Shown here: positions 2,280 through 22,593 of the stretch, one piece after another
Layout of the letters: the number at the start of each line of letters is the position of its first letter
Numbering within the stretch: position 1 is the first letter of the stretch
IMG/VR virus record: IMGVR_UViG_3300044623_001288
Location: 1-22,593 of that record
Strand: one strand, 5' to 3'
DNA length: 22,593 nt
DNA from: a virus
Position numbers and translations under genes: made by a program
Notes under the pieces: model-generated
Database searches by the model: none
Told to the model about the DNA's origin: nothing
The model's input: only the letters and a program-made list of their open reading frames with translations

Positions 2280-5200
2280 ATGCAATTTACCGGTGGATTC
2301 AACTTTACAAGCGGATGGTCTTTAACTGGGGGCGGCGGTCCTCCACCTCCATTCTTAGTTGATTATCTTGTTGTTGCTGGCGGTGGCGGTGGCGGTGGGC
2401 TGGCAGCAGGTGGCGGAGGAGCCGGTGGTTATAGAACTGATACTGGGTTTGTGGTTAGCCTTGATACTCCTATTACAGTTACTGTAGGTACAGGTGGAGC
2501 GGGCTCAACAGTTGACGGAGCCCTCAATTCAAACGGCAAGGGTGTATCTGGATTAAATTCCGTATTTTCTACTATCACAAGTACTGGTGGTGGCGGTGGC
2601 GGTTCTTATTTAGCCGCGGCCAGCACATATGCAAATGGCGCAACTGGAGGATCCGGTGGCGGTGGAGGTTGTGCTGAACCATCAATAGCAGGCACCGGCG
2701 CTGCTGGCAACACCCCTGCTACATCACCTAGTCAAGGTAATACTGGAGGTAACGCTAGATATGTCGCTAGTAGTTACTATGGTGCTGGTGGCGGCGGTGC
2801 AAGTGCGGCAGGTGCCGGACTTAGCACTGTTGCTGGACCAAATGCAGGTGGTGCAGGTACTCAAAGTAGTATAAGTGGTGCTGCTGTTTATTATGCAGGT
2901 GGCGGTGGTGGCGGAATCCATTCAGCCGATACCCCTAATACTGCCGGTGGTGCCGGGGGTGCAGGAGGTGGCGGAGCAGGCGGAAGTGGGGTAGCTGGTA
3001 CTACTGCCGGTACTAACGGAACGGTTAACACTGGTGGCGGGGGCGGGGGCGGTGGTTATGCAGCTAGCTCCACTTTGACTGGTGGAACAGGTGGGTCCGG
3101 TGTAGTAATTATTCGCTATCCAGACACTGAATACGCTTCAGCTACTACAGGCTCACCCACAGTAACAGTTGCAGGTGGCTATAGAATCTATAAATTCACC
3201 AACTCTGGCACAATAACATTTTCTAAGTCGCCGCCCCCTCCACCGACAACTATCTCAGTTGATTATCTGGTTGTTGCAGGTGGTGGCGGTGGTGGTGGTC
3301 TTGTGGCTGGTGGCGGTGGTGCCGGTGGTTATAGAACTGATACTGGGTTTGTGGTTAGCCTTGATACACCTATTACAGTAACTGTAGGTACAGGTGGCGC
3401 CGGATCACCAACCTTAGCAGGTCCAACTACAAGCGGCAAAGGTGTATCTGGATTAAATTCTGTATTTTCTACTATCACAAGTGCCGGTGGCGGTGGTGGC
3501 GGCTCTTTTACGCAAGGAGGTGGCACATATGCAAATGGCGCGACTGGAGGATCCGGTGGTGGAGGAGGTATATTTGAACCCTCGGGATCGGGCACCGGCG
3601 GCACTGGCAACACCCCTAGTACATCACCTAGTCAAGGCAATAACGGAGGTAACGCTAACTATTACTTTTATGGTGGCGGGGGTGGCGGGGCTAGTGCAGC
3701 AGGAGCCGGGACTGGTAGTGGACCAAATGCAGGTGGTGCAGGCACTCAAAGTAGTTTAAGTGGTACTGCTACTTATTATGGTGGTGGAGGTGGAGGTGGA
3801 AAACATTTCGGCGCTCCCAGTCCCAGTGTTAGGGCAGCAGGTGGTGCTGGGGGTGGCGGTGGTGGAGGTGGAGGTTCTCCTATCACTACGGGTGAAAACG
3901 GAACAGTAAATACTGGCGGCGGCGGTGGTGGTGGTGGCTGGGACGGAAGTGCCGGAAACGGCGGAGCAGGTGGCTCCGGTATCGTAATTATTCGCTATGC
4001 AGACACTGAATACGCAGCAACTACAACAGGCAGTCCCACTGTAACAGTTGCAGGTGGATATAGAATCTACACCTTCACCGGCAGCGGCACAATAACTTTT
4101 AATTCGGCACCACCCCCAACCATCCCTGTTGATTATCTGGTTGTTGCCGGTGGCGGTGGTGGCGGTAGTAAAATTGCTGGCAATGCTTACGCGGGTGGTG
4201 GTGGTGGAGCCGGTGGTTTTAAAACTGCTGCTGGGCTTGACGTTAGCCTTGATACTGCTATTACTGTTACGGTTGGCCTTGGTGGCGCTGGCGGTGTTGG
4301 AACAAGCGGATCGCCTGGTTCAGATTCTGTATTTGGCACCATCACATCAACTGGTGGAGGCTATGGCACTGTAGGTTCTATCACCACTGGCGTTGTCGGG
4401 GGCCCTGGCGGTTCTGGGGGTGCTGGCACATATTTTGGAATCGGCGGCGCTGGAATTGCTGGTCAAGGGTTTAAGGGCGGGACTGATTCAAGTGCTGCGG
4501 GCGGCGGTTCACCCGGCGGTGGCGGTGCAAGTGCTCAAGGTGTTGATATCACTACTTCTTCCGCAGCCGGCTCAGCCGGTGGTGCGGGTTTGGCTTCCAG
4601 TTATTCGGGCAGTTCTGTTAATTATGCAGGTGGCGGTGGCGGTGGCGGATATACTACTACAGGCGGTGCAGGAGGTAGTGGTGGCGGTGGTAATGGCGGA
4701 AGTGGCACGGGGTCACCTGGCATCGCCGGAACCGTAAATACAGGTGGCGGTGGCGGCGGAACTGGTTCAAGCACAGCAGCCGACCAGCCTAACGGTGGTA
4801 CAGGTGGTTCTGGTATCGTAATTGTTCGCTATGCAGATACTTACCCAGCAGCCACTACAACAGGATCACCCACAATAACAGTTGCAGGTGGCTATAGAAT
4901 CTATAAATTCACCGGCAGCGGCACAATAACTTTTAATTCGGCACCACCCCCAACCATCCCTGTTGATTATCTGGTTGTTGCCGGCGGAGGTGGCGGAGGT
5001 AGTTTTGCTGGTGGTGGTGCTGGTGGTTGTCTAACTGCTACTGGATTTGAAATATCACCGGATACTCCTATTACAGTTACAGTAGGTACAGGTGGGACAG
5101 GATCAACCGCTAGTACTCAAGGCGGGAACGGAAATCCATCTGTTTTTTCAAGTATTACTTCATTGGGCGGTGGTGGTGGTGGCGCATTTAGTACGGCCCA

Positions 5201-5762
5201 GGCCAACGGATTAGCTGCAAGTGCCGGAATAACTGGATCAGGTGGCGGTGGCGGGACATCAGCTACTAGTCCATATCCAGTTGGTACTGTGGGTTTTGGC
5301 ACCAGTCCGCAAGGTTATGACGGAGGTTTGGGGGTAGCAGGTGCCTATTGCGGTGGTGGTGGAGGTGGGGCCGGAGGTACTGGATTTGCTGGTACAAGTT
5401 CTCCTTATGTTGGCGGAACTGGAGGTATTGGAATATCATCATCTATGTCAGGGACAGCAACAAATTATGCAGGTGGCGGTGGTGGCGCAGGACTCAATAC
5501 AGCCGGCACTAATTCATATGGCGGCGGAACCGGAGGGACCCAGGCGAGCCAGCCAGCCCTATCTGGTGGAACAGTAAATACCGGTGGCGGTGGCGGTGGC
5601 GGATATGCTGCTGCAGGCGGCGCCGGTGGGTCCGGTATCGTAATTGTTCGCTATGCAGATACTTACCTAGCAGCAACTACAACAGGATCACCCACAATAA
5701 CAGTTACAGGTGGCTATAGAATCTATAAATTCACAGCCTCAGGTACAATAACTTTTAATTAG
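2280..5762 (+). CDS. Glycine-rich modular adhesin, four modules
   Basis: A 1160-residue protein that starts MQFTGGFNFTSGW and then carries four modules beginning near residues 25, 325, 615 and 893, each with a VDYLVVAGGGGGG opening. Modules are joined by proline linkers (SPPPPPTTI, SAPPPTIP). Each holds an ITVTVGTGG-type strand, NSVFSTITS, a YYAGGGGGG-type block, GTVNTGGGGGG, then GGSGVVIIRYADT and TVAGGYRIYKF. Modules 1 and 2 are close paralogs, and the boundaries of modules 2/3 and 3/4 share 77 identical bases, so the gene grew by module duplication. A receptor-binding or fibre-tip role is inferred from glycine-rich adhesins of T4-like phages. The start is supported by AAGGGAA 7 nt upstream and by the conserved N-terminus. 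Only the loops between glycine blocks vary strongly, which is where ligand contacts are expected. Confidence 0.85.
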   Translation: MQFTGGFNFTSGWSLTGGGGPPPPFLVDYLVVAGGGGGGGLAAGGGGAGGYRTDTGFVVSLDTPITVTVGTGGAGSTVDGALNSNGKGVSGLNSVFSTITSTGGGGGGSYLAAASTYANGATGGSGGGGGCAEPSIAGTGAAGNTPATSPSQGNTGGNARYVASSYYGAGGGGASAAGAGLSTVAGPNAGGAGTQSSISGAAVYYAGGGGGGIHSADTPNTAGGAGGAGGGGAGGSGVAGTTAGTNGTVNTGGGGGGGGYAASSTLTGGTGGSGVVIIRYPDTEYASATTGSPTVTVAGGYRIYKFTNSGTITFSKSPPPPPTTISVDYLVVAGGGGGGGLVAGGGGAGGYRTDTGFVVSLDTPITVTVGTGGAGSPTLAGPTTSGKGVSGLNSVFSTITSAGGGGGGSFTQGGGTYANGATGGSGGGGGIFEPSGSGTGGTGNTPSTSPSQGNNGGNANYYFYGGGGGGASAAGAGTGSGPNAGGAGTQSSLSGTATYYGGGGGGGKHFGAPSPSVRAAGGAGGGGGGGGGSPITTGENGTVNTGGGGGGGGWDGSAGNGGAGGSGIVIIRYADTEYAATTTGSPTVTVAGGYRIYTFTGSGTITFNSAPPPTIPVDYLVVAGGGGGGSKIAGNAYAGGGGGAGGFKTAAGLDVSLDTAITVTVGLGGAGGVGTSGSPGSDSVFGTITSTGGGYGTVGSITTGVVGGPGGSGGAGTYFGIGGAGIAGQGFKGGTDSSAAGGGSPGGGGASAQGVDITTSSAAGSAGGAGLASSYSGSSVNYAGGGGGGGYTTTGGAGGSGGGGNGGSGTGSPGIAGTVNTGGGGGGTGSSTAADQPNGGTGGSGIVIVRYADTYPAATTTGSPTITVAGGYRIYKFTGSGTITFNSAPPPTIPVDYLVVAGGGGGGSFAGGGAGGCLTATGFEISPDTPITVTVGTGGTGSTASTQGGNGNPSVFSSITSLGGGGGGAFSTAQANGLAASAGITGSGGGGGTSATSPYPVGTVGFGTSPQGYDGGLGVAGAYCGGGGGGAGGTGFAGTSSPYVGGTGGIGISSSMSGTATNYAGGGGGAGLNTAGTNSYGGGTGGTQASQPALSGGTVNTGGGGGGGYAAAGGAGGSGIVIVRYADTYLAATTTGSPTITVTGGYRIYKFTASGTITFN
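2421..2467. repeat. 47-bp exact direct repeat, copy 1
   Basis: Identical to 3321-3367, exactly 900 bp downstream. It encodes AGGYRTDTGFVVSLDT at the start of module 1 of the long adhesin. Exact identity over synonymous positions points to recent duplication or gene conversion. Confidence 0.9.
3321..3367. repeat. 47-bp exact direct repeat, copy 2
   Basis: Second copy of the element at 2421-2467, in module 2. Further near-identity continues on both sides (for example TCTGGATTAAATTC). Confidence 0.9.
4074..4150. repeat. 77-bp exact direct repeat, copy 1
   Basis: Identical to 4908-4984, 834 bp apart. It spans the end of module 2, the proline linker and the opening strand of module 3. Recombination between the copies would delete or add exactly one module in frame (834 = 278 codons). 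Confidence 0.9.
4908..4984. repeat. 77-bp exact direct repeat, copy 2
   Basis: Second copy of the 77-bp element, at the boundary of modules 3 and 4. Confidence 0.9.
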
Positions 5763-18501: not shown

Positions 18502-18524
18502 ACTAAATATCTTTAGTATTTAGT
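18502..18524. promoter_or_regulatory. Inverted repeat, candidate divergent late promoters
   Basis: ACTAAATA (18502-18509) and its complement TATTTAGT (18517-18524) form a perfect 8-bp inverted repeat with a 7-nt spacer. One copy faces the gp26-like gene (53 nt to its ATG), the other the tape measure gene (52 nt to its ATG). The octamer resembles TATAAATA at 6 of 8 positions. The symmetry suggests a shared divergent promoter. Confidence 0.45.
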
Positions 18525-18562: not shown

Positions 18563-19387
18563 ATGTTATCAAACAATCCATTAAAGCAATATTTTCGTAG
18601 ACCATCAATTTACTTGAGATTACCAAGTGGCGGTGAAGGATATGATCCAGAAGTCTTAACTATGTCAGAAACTGGTGAATTGCCTATATATCCTATGACA
18701 GCAATTGATGAAATTACAGTTAGAACCCCGGACGCTTTATACAATGGTCTTGCTATAGTAGAATTAATCAAAAGCTGTGTTCCTGCAATCAAAGATCCTT
18801 GGCAAATCAAAAGTATTGATGTAGATGCAATCTTATTAGCTATCAAATCCTGCTCACAGGGCAATGATTTAGAAGTTGAATCTGTTTGTCCAGCATGTGC
18901 TGAATCTGCCACTTACGGAGTTAATCTTATTGGGATGCTGCAAAATATCAAAAAAGTTGATTACACTACCCCGTTGAAATTAGGAGAGTTAGCAATTAAG
19001 TTCAGACCACTCATCTACAAAGAAATGAGTGAAGCTGGTAAACACCAATTTGAAATTCAGAAAATGTTTGCAAGTTTGCAAGATTTGTCAGATGAAGAAA
19101 AAACAAAAAAGTCACATGAAGCTATAGTAACCATTACTACTATCACAATGGAATTATTATCACATACAATTGAATACATTAAAGTCAACGATGAATTAGT
19201 AACACAAAAGGATTTTATACTTGAATTTTTGCAAAATTGCGATAAAAACATCTACAAAGAAATACGAGATTATCACGGTAAACTAAAAGACCAATCAAAA
19301 TTAGAGCCACAAAAAATCAAATGTATTCATTGTCAACATGAATATTCACAAGAAATTGTAATTAATCAATCTGATTTTTTCGGTTGA
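18563..19387 (+). CDS. 26: Baseplate hub protein (gp26-like)
   Basis: A 274-residue protein I place in the T4 gp26 baseplate family: N-terminal NPLKQYFRRPSIYLRLPSGG, then LPIYPMTAIDEITVRTPDAL, GLAIVELIKSCVPAIKDPW, and two cysteine pairs, CPAC (109-112) and CIHC (254-257), that could form a zinc ribbon across the fold. T4 gp26 takes part in building the central hub of the baseplate. AAAGGAA precedes the ATG by 9 nt. The small gene at 19384 starts inside its stop codon, so the two are translationally coupled, and both point away from the tape measure gene. T4 gp26 is shorter (208 residues); the extra length includes a Lys/Glu-rich helical section around residues 150-240. Confidence 0.85.
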   Translation: MLSNNPLKQYFRRPSIYLRLPSGGEGYDPEVLTMSETGELPIYPMTAIDEITVRTPDALYNGLAIVELIKSCVPAIKDPWQIKSIDVDAILLAIKSCSQGNDLEVESVCPACAESATYGVNLIGMLQNIKKVDYTTPLKLGELAIKFRPLIYKEMSEAGKHQFEIQKMFASLQDLSDEEKTKKSHEAIVTITTITMELLSHTIEYIKVNDELVTQKDFILEFLQNCDKNIYKEIRDYHGKLKDQSKLEPQKIKCIHCQHEYSQEIVINQSDFFG

Positions 19388-19611
19388 GGCTTCTACACCT
19401 CAACCCTGAGGGTGTTCAGAAGCTGTTAGATGGCATGGAAAAAGAATGTAGTGAGATAAAGAAATCTGCTTTAACTTTATCTTGGTACATGCGGGGAGGT
19501 GCTTCGTATGAGGATGTACTAAACATGTCCCATGACGAAAGAAAGTTAGTTAACGAATTAGTAGAAAGTAATTTGGAAACAACTAAGAAAACTCAAATGC
19601 CATTTTTCTAG
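19384..19611 (+). CDS. Small baseplate-hub-associated protein (gp51-like position)
   Basis: A 75-residue protein read from a TTG that overlaps the stop of the gp26-like gene (TTGA). It contains LNPEGVQKLLDGMEKECSEI, LSWYMRGGASYEDVLNMS, and ends ETTKKTQMPFF. Small proteins with the WYMRGG and KK-x3-PFF patterns follow gp26-like genes in T4-like phages as I recall, and gp51 is a hub assembly catalyst in T4, but the match to gp51 is by position and size, not by proven homology. A start at the internal ATG 19435 would lose the LLHLNPEGVQKLLDG part, which looks genuinely coding, so the coupled TTG start is preferred. No ribosome site is seen, consistent with coupling. Confidence 0.7.
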   Translation: MRLLHLNPEGVQKLLDGMEKECSEIKKSALTLSWYMRGGASYEDVLNMSHDERKLVNELVESNLETTKKTQMPFF

Positions 19612-19626
19612 CCGTAAATATTCATT

Positions 19627-19634
19627 TATAAATT
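19627..19634 (+). promoter_or_regulatory. Possible late promoter (TATAAATT)
   Basis: TATAAATT matches TATAAATA at 7 of 8 positions on the plus strand, just after the small hub gene. Because ATTTATAAAT is a palindrome, the minus strand also reads TATAAATG. It could drive the structured region; the call is weak. Confidence 0.3.
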
Positions 19635-19763
19635 TCGTGTTGTTTCAATAACAGATGAACTGGCGTTCATCTAAGAACTCACTGCGTTCGTTCTTTGTTT
19701 TTACGGTACTCGATTGTTTTATACTGTAATGGTTTAGATATCAATTGCCGATTAGAGAGCCAT

Positions 19764-19785
19764 GGTAGTGCAAATTTGCACTACC
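19764..19785. repeat. 22-bp perfect palindrome
   Basis: GGTAGTGCAAA (19764-19774) is followed directly by its exact reverse complement (19775-19785). A further T-A pair and, after one bulged A, A-T and C-G pairs extend the stem outward. No U-run follows on either strand, so it is not a terminator. It could be a protein-binding dyad or an RNA hairpin or dimer site. Confidence 0.85.
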
Positions 19786-20122
19786 AATGGGTAAAAGTGT
19801 GTTTGCCACGACCGTCGACCTTTGCATTCTATTCCCCGTATAATCGCCTATTTCTGACATTATACGCAACCGGTTGTCCTGTAATGTTTTTGGGACTGTA
19901 GTGAAGCTGCCAATGTCTTTCAATTGGTCCTTCGACAACGCATGTTCTATATCCGCAAGATAGAGTTGGATATAGACTCATTGAAGGTTCGCTTTGACGA
20001 GAGCCTTCTCGGTTTTCCATGAATATTGCTATTCATGCATACTCCAGAATCTGCTTGCGTGTAACTTTCAACGCAAACTCAAGGAGGACTCACAAACTGA
20101 GCCAGCAAATTGTTACTATATA

Positions 20123-20542
20123 TTAGATATTAATTGTTAATTGAGAATTATTTTTTGTTGACTTGGTGTCAGTGGAACAATATGATTTTAATAAATCAGT
20201 ATTGTTTAAGAAGAAACTATCAAATTCAAAAATCATCCAGTCTCCGTATTTTTTTGATGTATAATAAGTGAAATTATCGGCAACCCATGTTAATTTGCTT
20301 TGTACAGCAATATAACGACCTTTACGATTAAACTTCATAAAAAGAATGTTCAAATCATTGGGGTCGGCTACATCCATAAGTTGCCCGATCCATGCATCTA
20401 TTACTTTACATTCCCCTGTAAGCAATAGATGAAAAGGAAAGTCGTTTAGTGTTTCAACATTGAAATTAATTCTATCACGATTAAATGACAGTAATAAAGT
20501 GTTGATTTCTTCGTCTACGGTAACTGACATTTCACTTATCAT
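20123..20542 (-). CDS. Hypothetical protein downstream of the SegE-like gene
   Basis: A 139-residue protein, not recognised. It starts MISEMSVTVDEEINTLLLSF; a second ATG four codons on is equally possible, and neither has a clear ribosome site (GAG or AAGTGA only). The middle has alternating aromatic strands (GRYIAVQSKLTWVADNFTYY) and DWMIFEFDSFF, suggesting a beta-rich fold; the tail is polar (STDTKSTKNNS). No signal peptide or membrane helix is apparent. It lies 28 nt after the SegE-like gene and is probably the last gene of the gp46 unit. Its stop borders the structured noncoding region, with no terminator visible between them. Confidence 0.7.
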   Translation of the reverse strand: MISEMSVTVDEEINTLLLSFNRDRINFNVETLNDFPFHLLLTGECKVIDAWIGQLMDVADPNDLNILFMKFNRKGRYIAVQSKLTWVADNFTYYTSKKYGDWMIFEFDSFFLNNTDLLKSYCSTDTKSTKNNSQLTINI

Positions 20543-20570: not shown

Positions 20571-21014
20571 CTATTTTTTCATCTTCGCTTCTTCTGGCGT
20601 CTCTCCCGGTGGGATAAATTTTATCCCAGAAATTAGTCCATTATAGTACTTTCTCTCACCGTTGGGTAATCTAGTTCTAAGAACCTCTTCATTTATCTGG
20701 AGTTTAACTTCGGCGTAAACTAACGAGGCTCTGGTCTTGTGAAGGGACACTATTTCAAATTTATAATTATTTTTGCCCAAAGCAGAGATTGCTAAATTTA
20801 ATCGCACAGAAGATCCTGTATATGTTTTCCAGTCAGATTCCTTAATCACTTTTTTCTTATTTACTTTACCCTTGACTGTTTTTCTCAAGTGTTGATGTAG
20901 TTGTTTTTTACCTAAATATTCCATACCGGAAGATAATTCAGTTATCCTATATAGGAAACCAAACCATTCATCAATATTGAAATCATGAGGGAACTCCCAG
21001 TGACCTTTGTGCAT
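20571..21014 (-). CDS. SegE-like GIY-YIG domain protein
   Basis: A 147-residue protein with a divergent GIY-YIG nuclease fold: WFGFLYRITELSSG (17-30) holds the first strand, MEYLGKKQ (31-38) the YIG-like strand, then a basic insertion KGKVNKKKVIKESDWKTYTGSS (48-69), RLNLAISALGKNNYKFEIV, a candidate catalytic E102 in VYAEVKLQ, and N125 in YYNGL. SegE-like GIY-YIG proteins are widespread in T4-like phages; whether this one is a homing enzyme or a domesticated repair nuclease is open. Its place directly after gp46 (15 nt gap) hints at a role in DNA metabolism. It lacks the NUMOD or zinc-finger parts of the homing endonucleases in the head cluster. The ATG follows a TATAAATA octamer by 6 nt. Confidence 0.75.
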   Translation of the reverse strand: MHKGHWEFPHDFNIDEWFGFLYRITELSSGMEYLGKKQLHQHLRKTVKGKVNKKKVIKESDWKTYTGSSVRLNLAISALGKNNYKFEIVSLHKTRASLVYAEVKLQINEEVLRTRLPNGERKYYNGLISGIKFIPPGETPEEAKMKK

Positions 21015-21029: not shown

Positions 21030-22593
21030 TCATTCTATATCCACTAAGTTATTGTATTGTGTAAAACCATTTTCTTTCACAACTTTCAGCACATTAGGTA
21101 CCCTATTTACTAATTCCTCTTTGTGAGAAACAAGCCATATTGATTTGTGTCTGCGGCGGGCCATATCCTTTAGAATCGCCAGAGAATTTTCAACTCCAAC
21201 ACTATCTGTGCCGTTATCCAACAGTTCGTCAATGAACAACACATTTATGGGTTGATATAAGTTTTCCCAAACATCACGGAATGCCCAAGACAATGATAGA
21301 ATAACTCTATTCATTTCTCCCCTTGATAAATTATAAAAGTCCATTTCACGACCCAATTCCGTAATCTCAACTTGCAAATCATTTTTAAATATTACTTGAT
21401 GTGGAAGTCCAATTTTATCTAAGTAATGCGTTAATCTACTATTCAAGTATGCCAGATTTTGATCAATGATCTTCTTCCGAACAAAACTATCTTTACTAGT
21501 TAAAATATCAAGCAAGAATTTCTGATGTTCCATAGTGCGGGTCAACCGATTAATCTTGTCAAAATTAATCTCTTGTAATGCTTGATTTTCCATCTCGGTA
21601 ATCTGTTCATTATATGGGTCAACATCTTCACTTTTTCGTTCAATATCTTTAATTGTATTAGCTACTTTACTACGATGTTCAATTGCCTGCGATTCAGTAT
21701 CATAATGAGTTTCTGGCTGACGCCCCAACTCAAGCTCCGTATATTCTGCTAATTGATCAGAAAAAGGATTAGCTTCTAGCTTTTTATCTTCCCAAACTGT
21801 TTTCAAGTTACTTAGGTCGCTACTATGTCTGATTGCTTCAGCTTCGGTTTTGTACAAAGTGGTAGGCTTCATCCCCAAGTCTTTTATAAGTGCTTGATTA
21901 GTAGCTACACTAGTTTGTAATTCATTAATCTGCACCACTGCATTACCCAACAGTTCTTGCTTATCAATTAACACCTTGGCGTGACTGTCATCATGGAAGT
22001 CTTGCCCACACGCATAACAAGTATGATCTTCTAATAACTCAACTTCTTTTTCAAGTTTAGAAATTAATTCTTTTTCTTTTACTATACTTTTGGTTAGTGT
22101 AGAAATCGTACTAGCAATAGTAGATTGACTGATAAATTCGCGTGACCACTCGTTCAATTTAGTCCATGCTGCTAGTTCATCTTCAATGTTATAGCGATTC
22201 TTATCTACATATATTTTATCGGCAGCAGATACATCACTGTCATGCTTTTGTTGCCAGGCCAAAGACCGAGCAAACAATGAATTATAAGCATCCTGTTGTT
22301 TTTTCTTTTCGTTCCAAGCTGATAATGCGGTATGAGACTGTAATTCAATATCAATATCAATGATAATCAACCGTTGATAATCAATAGCAAGTTTCTCCAA
22401 GTCCTCATCGTGCTTCATCTTCCACAATTTCTGTCTACGTTTAGTAGCATCAATTTGTTCTTGTACACGTTTGTTGGCCTCTTCAATTGCTTTTACATTA
22501 AATTCTTCTTGTTGAATATGATCTTTACTATCTTTGACCATTCCTTTAATGATTTCTGCCTTCTCACTAAGTAAAGTAATGCCCAATAGTTGT
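21030..22593 (-). CDS. 46: Recombination endonuclease subunit gp46 (SMC/Rad50-like), 5' part outside window
   Basis: The last 520 or so residues of a Rad50/SbcC-like ATPase. The frame is open to the window edge, and the Walker A region lies beyond it; the first in-window start-like codon is an internal TTG. Visible parts: long coiled-coil arms, a zinc hook CYAC (about residues 190-193 counted from that TTG), the ABC signature LSRGEMNRVILSLSWAF, Walker B VLFIDELLDNG, and the switch histidine in IWLVSHKEEL. gp46 pairs with gp47 (Mre11-like) to resect DNA ends for recombination-dependent replication and host DNA breakdown in T4. The signature Ser-Arg-Gly replaces the usual Ser-Gly-Gly. The SegE-like gene follows by 15 nt. 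Confidence 0.93.
   Translation of the reverse strand, partial: QLLGITLLSEKAEIIKGMVKDSKDHIQQEEFNVKAIEEANKRVQEQIDATKRRQKLWKMKHDEDLEKLAIDYQRLIIIDIDIELQSHTALSAWNEKKKQQDAYNSLFARSLAWQQKHDSDVSAADKIYVDKNRYNIEDELAAWTKLNEWSREFISQSTIASTISTLTKSIVKEKELISKLEKEVELLEDHTCYACGQDFHDDSHAKVLIDKQELLGNAVVQINELQTSVATNQALIKDLGMKPTTLYKTEAEAIRHSSDLSNLKTVWEDKKLEANPFSDQLAEYTELELGRQPETHYDTESQAIEHRSKVANTIKDIERKSEDVDPYNEQITEMENQALQEINFDKINRLTRTMEHQKFLLDILTSKDSFVRKKIIDQNLAYLNSRLTHYLDKIGLPHQVIFKNDLQVEITELGREMDFYNLSRGEMNRVILSLSWAFRDVWENLYQPINVLFIDELLDNGTDSVGVENSLAILKDMARRRHKSIWLVSHKEELVNRVPNVLKVVKENGFTQYNNLVDIE

Follow-up and report, generated by a model that had tools for sequence, protein, structure and literature searches.

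A large structured RNA predicted between the gp46-nuclease and gp26 genes of a clade of T4-like jumbo phages

What occupies the 511 bases, devoid of any credible gene, that separate a convergent plus-strand gene set (gp26/orf75) from a minus-strand one (gp46-nuclease) in a fragment of a T4-like jumbo phage? The window, by which we mean the whole stretch of 22,593 nucleotides analysed, carries T4-like portal, gp26 and gp46 genes and has the majority of its genes on the minus strand; beyond the element described here, minus-strand genes start again at 18503, 1.2 kb past it. The surrounding genes are as follows.

18563-19387, plus strand: gp26-like baseplate hub gene (phrog_150 / PF12322), convergent with the RNA
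19384-19611, plus strand: small orf75, convergent with the RNA
20123-20542, minus strand: orf139, immediately upstream of the RNA, with PDDEXK-like nucleases as homologues
20571-21014, minus strand: SegE-type GIY-YIG gene, beside orf139
21030-22586, minus strand: gp46-like SbcC subunit gene (phrog_77, 2.7e-45), upstream of the RNA on the same strand

The homologues of orf139 in relatives are PDDEXK-like nucleases of 185-190 aa, and the copy in the window is without their N-terminal part. This catalytic part is replaced in the window clade, where the SegE-type GIY-YIG gene adjoins, an arrangement that suggests damage by a homing event. Elsewhere in the window, near tail-fibre-type sequence, two adjacent large ORFs (491-2131 and 2280-5762) both match phrog_2295, of unknown function, and are likely to be a duplication.

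A preliminary description had proposed that about 490 nt of dense stem-loops in this gap (19612-20103), in a region of raised GC, form an undescribed large phage RNA, possibly of a new class. The stem density is indeed beyond chance: there are five perfect stems of at least 8 bp against 0.3 in dinucleotide shuffles, and 13 of at least 6 bp against 6.5, with none of 100 shuffles having as many in either class. The folding z-score against shuffles is -4.52 for the minus strand and -2.16 for the plus strand, and an open reading frame check found no credible gene. The GC content, by contrast with the claim, is 0.409, compared with 0.413 for the whole window and 0.438 for the RNA proper.

Hundreds of IMG/VR loci hold homologues in the same slot, which extends from the gp46/PDDEXK-nuclease operon to the convergent gp26 genes. 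Via the flanking proteins about 170 loci were found, and in well over 100 of them the intergenic stretch is kept at 66-100% identity (blastn). A motif scan of viral contigs gave at least 77 scorable loci, all confirmed by a covariance model of the RNA core, R1. From these homologues a set of 109 non-redundant sequences (353-411 nt) was used for a covariation test on R-scape logic, with a FastTree tree, Fitch ancestral states, nulls that keep tree and composition, and a G-test with APC; the E-values are rough, since the implementation is our own and not R-scape itself.

Under this phylogeny-aware null, 22 column pairs covary at E<0.05, and 19 of them are standard pairs in helices and a pseudoknot. 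These 19 trace the hairpins 20037-20018, 20008-19983, 19981-19942 and 19866-19837, the helix 19939-19934/19878-19873 and the pseudoknot 19963-19959 / 19829-19825. The rest are two cross-pairs between neighbouring covarying pairs and one non-Watson-Crick pair, 19811-19751, which reads GG/TT/GA/CC and perhaps reflects alignment register, a clade effect or a tertiary contact. Applied to 75 sequences, RNAalifold predicts 118 pairs on the minus strand; 93% of their cells are standard, and 64 of the pairs show at least two Watson-Crick types. Within a core of 30 pairs, pairing holds in 97.7% of cells, compared with 84.5% when shuffled and 27-38% when slid; changes occur on both sides in 21 of the 30 pairs, and 0 of 500 shuffles reach the core's score. 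We regard it as nearly certain that this is a real structured RNA.

The same comparison bears on the strand, which the preliminary description had left open (plus favoured at three sites, minus at two). Because the G-U exchanges sit on the minus reading of the helices, the molecule reads from 20112 to 19745; a plus-strand RNA was rejected, as A-C mismatches appear on plus where the same helices have G-U on minus. Assignment to the minus strand is thus made with high confidence. There is no conserved reading frame in the RNA: lengths modulo 3 are evenly spread among the 109 sequences (36/35/38), and the longest stop-free run in homologues has a median of 69 aa and a maximum of 123. A small ORF from an AUG behind the 3' hairpin was also discarded, as its length changes by single bases and, in the window, it soon meets a stop.

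The hairpins at 19653-19695 do resemble a plus-strand terminator, and one could see in the whole stretch nothing but a double terminator, or else hairpins arising by chance or a gene that went unrecognised. The covariation and the absent conserved frame refute this reading, whose probability we put as negligible. The terminator-like features belong to the left part, 19612-19745, which lies outside the conserved RNA and holds two hairpins followed by TTCTTTGTTTTT on the plus strand.

19653-19672, plus strand: hairpin AGATGAAC..GTTCATCT, conserved with compensatory changes, outside the RNA
19673-19705, plus strand: hairpin AAGAAC..GTTCTT and then a T-rich tract, conserved pairing, outside the RNA

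Judged from their sequence, the two hairpins with the T-rich tract are best read as a putative plus-strand terminator of the gp26/orf75 genes, of which the first hairpin is probably the first half. An outer stem 19612/19700, said earlier to enclose two hairpins, was dropped as it is not conserved among homologues. With its ends placed by conservation, the RNA comes to about 370 nt rather than 490, and is made up of the following parts.

19745-20112, minus strand: conserved structured RNA, 5' end near 20112 and 3' end near 19745
20042-20086, minus strand: hairpin domain at the 5' end; its outer helix, CUCC/GGAG, is invariant and pairs in 74-75 of 75
20018-20037, minus strand: 8-bp hairpin, strongly covarying (pair 20033-20022, E=2e-4)
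19868-20014, minus strand: core domain (model R1), closing helix 20014-20010/19872-19868 (UACCG/CGGUA)
19983-20008, minus strand: core hairpin GAAGG..CCUUC with inner UCG/(G)CGA, 100% paired, E about 2e-4
19942-19981, minus strand: core hairpin with pseudoknot loop 19959-19963, best pair E=1e-6
19873-19939, minus strand: covarying helix 19939-19934/19878-19873, enclosing a variable arm and a conserved segment
19879-19903, minus strand: near-invariant, mostly unpaired segment ACUACAGUCCC..A..UUACAG, with invariant alignment columns
19837-19866, minus strand: long hairpin with many G-U exchanges, seven pairs at E<0.05, which fixes the strand
19825-19829, minus strand: 3' strand of the pseudoknot, 5 bp with loop 19963-19959, consensus UUAUC / GAUAA type
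19760-19790, minus strand: 3' hairpin (CCAU)UGGUAGUGC..GCACUACCAUGG, then GCUUC, almost invariant in sequence

In the hairpin at 19983-20008, four of the five outer pairs are doubly changed, as are 10 of 11 pairs in the hairpin at 19942-19981, and in the long hairpin pair 19857-19847 reads GC 62 / UG 28 / AU 6. The helix 19939-19934/19878-19873, which is GUUGUC/GGACAAC in the window and GUUGC/GCAAC elsewhere, confirms one half of a nested pair suggested from the window; the CCAAT/ATTGG stem proposed within it falls in the variable arm. Pairing of the pseudoknot is seen in 94-98% of the 109 sequences, with CG/UA, GC/AU and UA/CG exchanges, and a helix offered by RNAalifold, 20106-20101/19824-19829, was rejected in its favour, being only 60-89% paired. 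The window itself has mismatches at two of the five aligned pseudoknot pairs, and a shifted helix, UCUAU 19964-19960 / AUAGA 19832-19828, is a possible alternative there.

Three elements are invariant in sequence: the 5' CUCC/GGAG helix, the ACUACAGUCCC..UUACAG segment and the GGUAGUGC..GCACUACCAUGG hairpin. The 5' helix, CUCCUUGA/CUGGAG, is conserved in sequence beyond pairing, whereas its inner arm is variable and compensated (AU/GC/UA pairs), the domain pattern being present in 74 of 75 sequences. An invariant CUCCUU stands opposite GGAG and, unlike the other helices, hardly varies. The strand CUCCUUGA resembles the anti-Shine-Dalgarno end of 16S rRNA, and the helix pairs this anti-Shine-Dalgarno-like strand with a Shine-Dalgarno-like one. 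The 3' hairpin, GGUAGUGC..GCACUACCAUGGCUUC, is likewise conserved beyond pairing, its rare changes being compensated. Its exact pattern is found in 11 of 12 large R1-positive records searched (the exception, L119, is a compensated variant), once in most member genomes and twice in one record, G015, and is absent from the searched phages that have no such RNA, with zero control matches. A pairing of the core CACUAC with GUAGUG of this hairpin was considered and rejected, as the L120 hairpin reads GGTAGAGC/GCTCTACC with the core motif unchanged.

Could the pairing serve a DNA strand instead, as a single-stranded DNA structure or a replication or recombination site? The neighbouring genes are recombination nucleases, single-stranded DNA can form G-T wobbles too, and an element of GAP32-type phages found in the same slot (see below) recurs 4-5 times in one orientation at roughly even intervals. 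However, a pseudoknot and long invariant single-stranded segments are typical of RNA, and window-type genomes hold a single copy, so that we consider a DNA-level element improbable.

In a gp46 tree, built by a quick method and with some long branches, the RNA marks one clade (support 98): all 46 members with enough flank carry it, and no row outside the clade does. The order gp46-nuclease-RNA-orf75-gp26 is kept in nearly all copies. Among the matches listed, none of 80 pattern matches in bacterial genomes was confirmed, and all confirmed copies lie in viral contigs. Annotated phage records gave no match to the window RNA, and neither did R1 on the whole genomes of GAP32, Atu_ph07, PA5oct, Phosso and SCTP-2; weak R1 matches in G008 and G018 (E 0.03-0.05) have many broken pairs and look like chance. 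The computed result is a minus-strand structure with a pseudoknot and seven or more helical elements; it is non-coding, lies in one slot and is retained clade-wide. It is retained by all sampled members, so its loss is probably costly, and we have little doubt that its function is conserved throughout the clade.

How such an RNA would be made is suggested by its position. The core begins ~90-115 nt past the nuclease stop codon, nearly constantly in most loci, and a T4-type late promoter, TATAAATA, upstream of the RNA is not conserved (4 of 93 loci); a search for a promoter or 3' terminator of the minus-strand RNA found none. From this distance and the lack of a conserved late-promoter motif we infer that its transcription may be shared with the gp46-nuclease operon or may start at a promoter within the nuclease gene. 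The RNA would then fold into a compact particle held together by the pseudoknot and act in trans during infection, the invariant elements being where it might contact a protein, the ribosome or a further copy of itself.

The case for action in trans draws on size, fold and a relocated copy. The record G015, a 103-kb contig, has two divergent copies (L229:2150-2950 and L230:2500-3300): one occupies the usual slot and has its core interrupted by a long insertion, the other is flanked by unrelated genes. Both copies have the 3' hairpin; the one outside the slot is complete, with core and 3' hairpin, and neither gp46, nuclease nor gp26 adjoins it. The RNA is therefore not dependent on the gp46-gp26 setting. 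As a lone exception G015 is thin evidence, since most genomes have a single copy in one setting, and we put action in trans, rather than in cis, at only slightly better than even.

The same observations on position are also consistent with a cis-acting element, namely a long 3' UTR of the gp46-nuclease transcript (for stability or processing) or, in a variant, a control of RNA polymerase as it crosses the convergent gp26 island towards the minus-strand genes that resume 1.2 kb beyond the RNA. Besides the near-constant distance to the stop codon and the lack of a conserved promoter, the multi-copy RNA of GAP32 sits on the coding strand in co-directional gene runs, with one copy directly after an annotated terminator. 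Against a 3' UTR stand the second G015 copy and the state of the window clade, where the nuclease gene has been truncated but the RNA is intact; in size and elaboration the RNA also exceeds the antitermination and UTR elements known to us. A cis role of either kind is less probable than action in trans but is its chief and a serious rival. The explanation we lean towards is a large stand-alone structured non-coding RNA of ~370 nt on the minus strand that acts in trans.

Few non-coding RNAs are at once large, conserved and elaborately folded, and the window RNA is absent from every RNA catalogue searched. In Rfam cmscan searches (window at E<=1, 14 diverse homologues at E<=10), no match was obtained to GOLLD, ROOL or OLE, nor to intron, RNase P, tmRNA or ribozyme models, the few matches being chance. 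This also bears on a catalytic RNA or its remnant (group I-like intron, RNase P-like or a new ribozyme), for which the compact pseudoknotted core with invariant unpaired segments and a homing-type endonuclease gene close by might argue; as no catalytic model matches and no gene is interrupted, we deem this very improbable.

GOLLD is a large pseudoknotted phage-encoded RNA of unknown function found through metagenomes, ROOL an ornate, pseudoknotted RNA, likewise carried by phages, for which no protein partner is known, and OLE a large conserved structured RNA that forms a dimer in cryo-EM (PMC12286853). The window RNA resembles GOLLD in being phage-borne, large and pseudoknotted, but GOLLD measures 800 nt or more against ~370 nt here, and the window RNA occupies a jumbo-phage slot between gp46 and gp26. 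With ROOL it shares a phage host and a pseudoknot, but it is shorter than the solved ROOL (659 nt). Like OLE it is large, conserved and structured, but OLE is bacterial. The RNAs of the GOLLD and ROOL families assemble into homo-oligomeric cages. They often lie near a tRNA island, whereas ARAGORN finds no tRNA or tmRNA in the 22.6-kb window. GOLLD and ROOL are the systems nearest in kind, and the failure of their models, the shorter length and the lack of a nearby tRNA set it apart as a class of its own within that general kind, not the distant relative of either that had been suggested. A new class is thus supported. No description of such an RNA was found in the literature searched, outside which lie subscription journals and most preprints, and text searches of the CBB, MIJ3 and Atu_ph07 genome papers gave no mention of one.

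In cultured jumbo phages the same slot is a gap of 650-900 nt that is gene-free or has only tiny predicted genes, and following the window RNA into it led to a second, unannotated, multi-copy and covarying RNA in jumbo phages of E. coli and relatives. This family B element, gene-free and ~500-700 nt long, is present in 4-5 copies per genome, which all point the same way and are separated by tens of kb (in GAP32 near 35, 99, 178, 262 and 341 kb). Its carriers are Mimasvirus/Eneladusvirus/Asteriusvirus-type jumbo phages, including GAP32, 121Q, PBECO4, CBB, BF and Munch (copies in L493-L522, from GAP32, BF, Munch, XaC1, SD-1_S14 and Kaldavass, e.g. L174:6044-6847). Its conservation extends across genera; genome annotations leave it blank or fill it with tiny hypothetical proteins. 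Across 31 copies, 19 pairs covary at E<0.5 and 11 at E<0.05, all mostly standard, with a pseudoknot; G-U counts favour the strand of the window RNA by 37 to 13.

One family B copy shares both gene slot and RNA strand with the window RNA, and family B also has a covarying structure, a pseudoknot involving a hairpin loop and the motif GUUGC..ACAGAGCAAC. It differs in copy number, 4-5 per genome against one in most window-type genomes. The family B model, R2, gave no match within the RNA of window-type sequences, and R1 run unfiltered on family B gave a best E of 0.84, at a chance place. As neither covariance model detects the other family, the two RNAs are kept as separate families; motif, slot and strand are suggestive of a common origin, but this was not adopted, given the lack of a model match.

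Other contents of the slot were also seen. In relatives that lack the window RNA, the interval between gp46 and gp26 holds different conserved stretches free of ORFs (L121-L145, L165, L170, in the gap downstream of gp46; L141/L142; L160), which are possibly further structured RNAs; one adjoins a SegE-like gene, with GGGGGTACCGGTCAACCGCCTCC conserved. In PA5oct-type phages and Sinorhizobium phage Phosso the slot spans 1.0-1.5 kb with no ORFs or only tiny predicted ones (Cassandra, L489:8026-9539; PA5oct, L176:7526-9038; Phosso, L177:9233-10246).

Tentatively, the gp46-gp26 slot of T4-like jumbo phages may hold a fast-diverging superfamily of large non-coding RNAs, single-copy in the window clade, in 4-5 co-oriented copies in GAP32/121Q-type phages and possibly in other forms elsewhere. 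If this were true, such RNAs would be a core part of jumbo-phage biology, for example in the control of polymerase over very long transcription units or as an RNA particle, and their elaboration would be comparable to that of GOLLD and ROOL while having been overlooked in cultured, well-annotated phages. The presence of family B in cultured phages (121Q, PBECO4, GAP32, CBB, BF and Munch) makes the role of such RNAs testable in laboratory strains.
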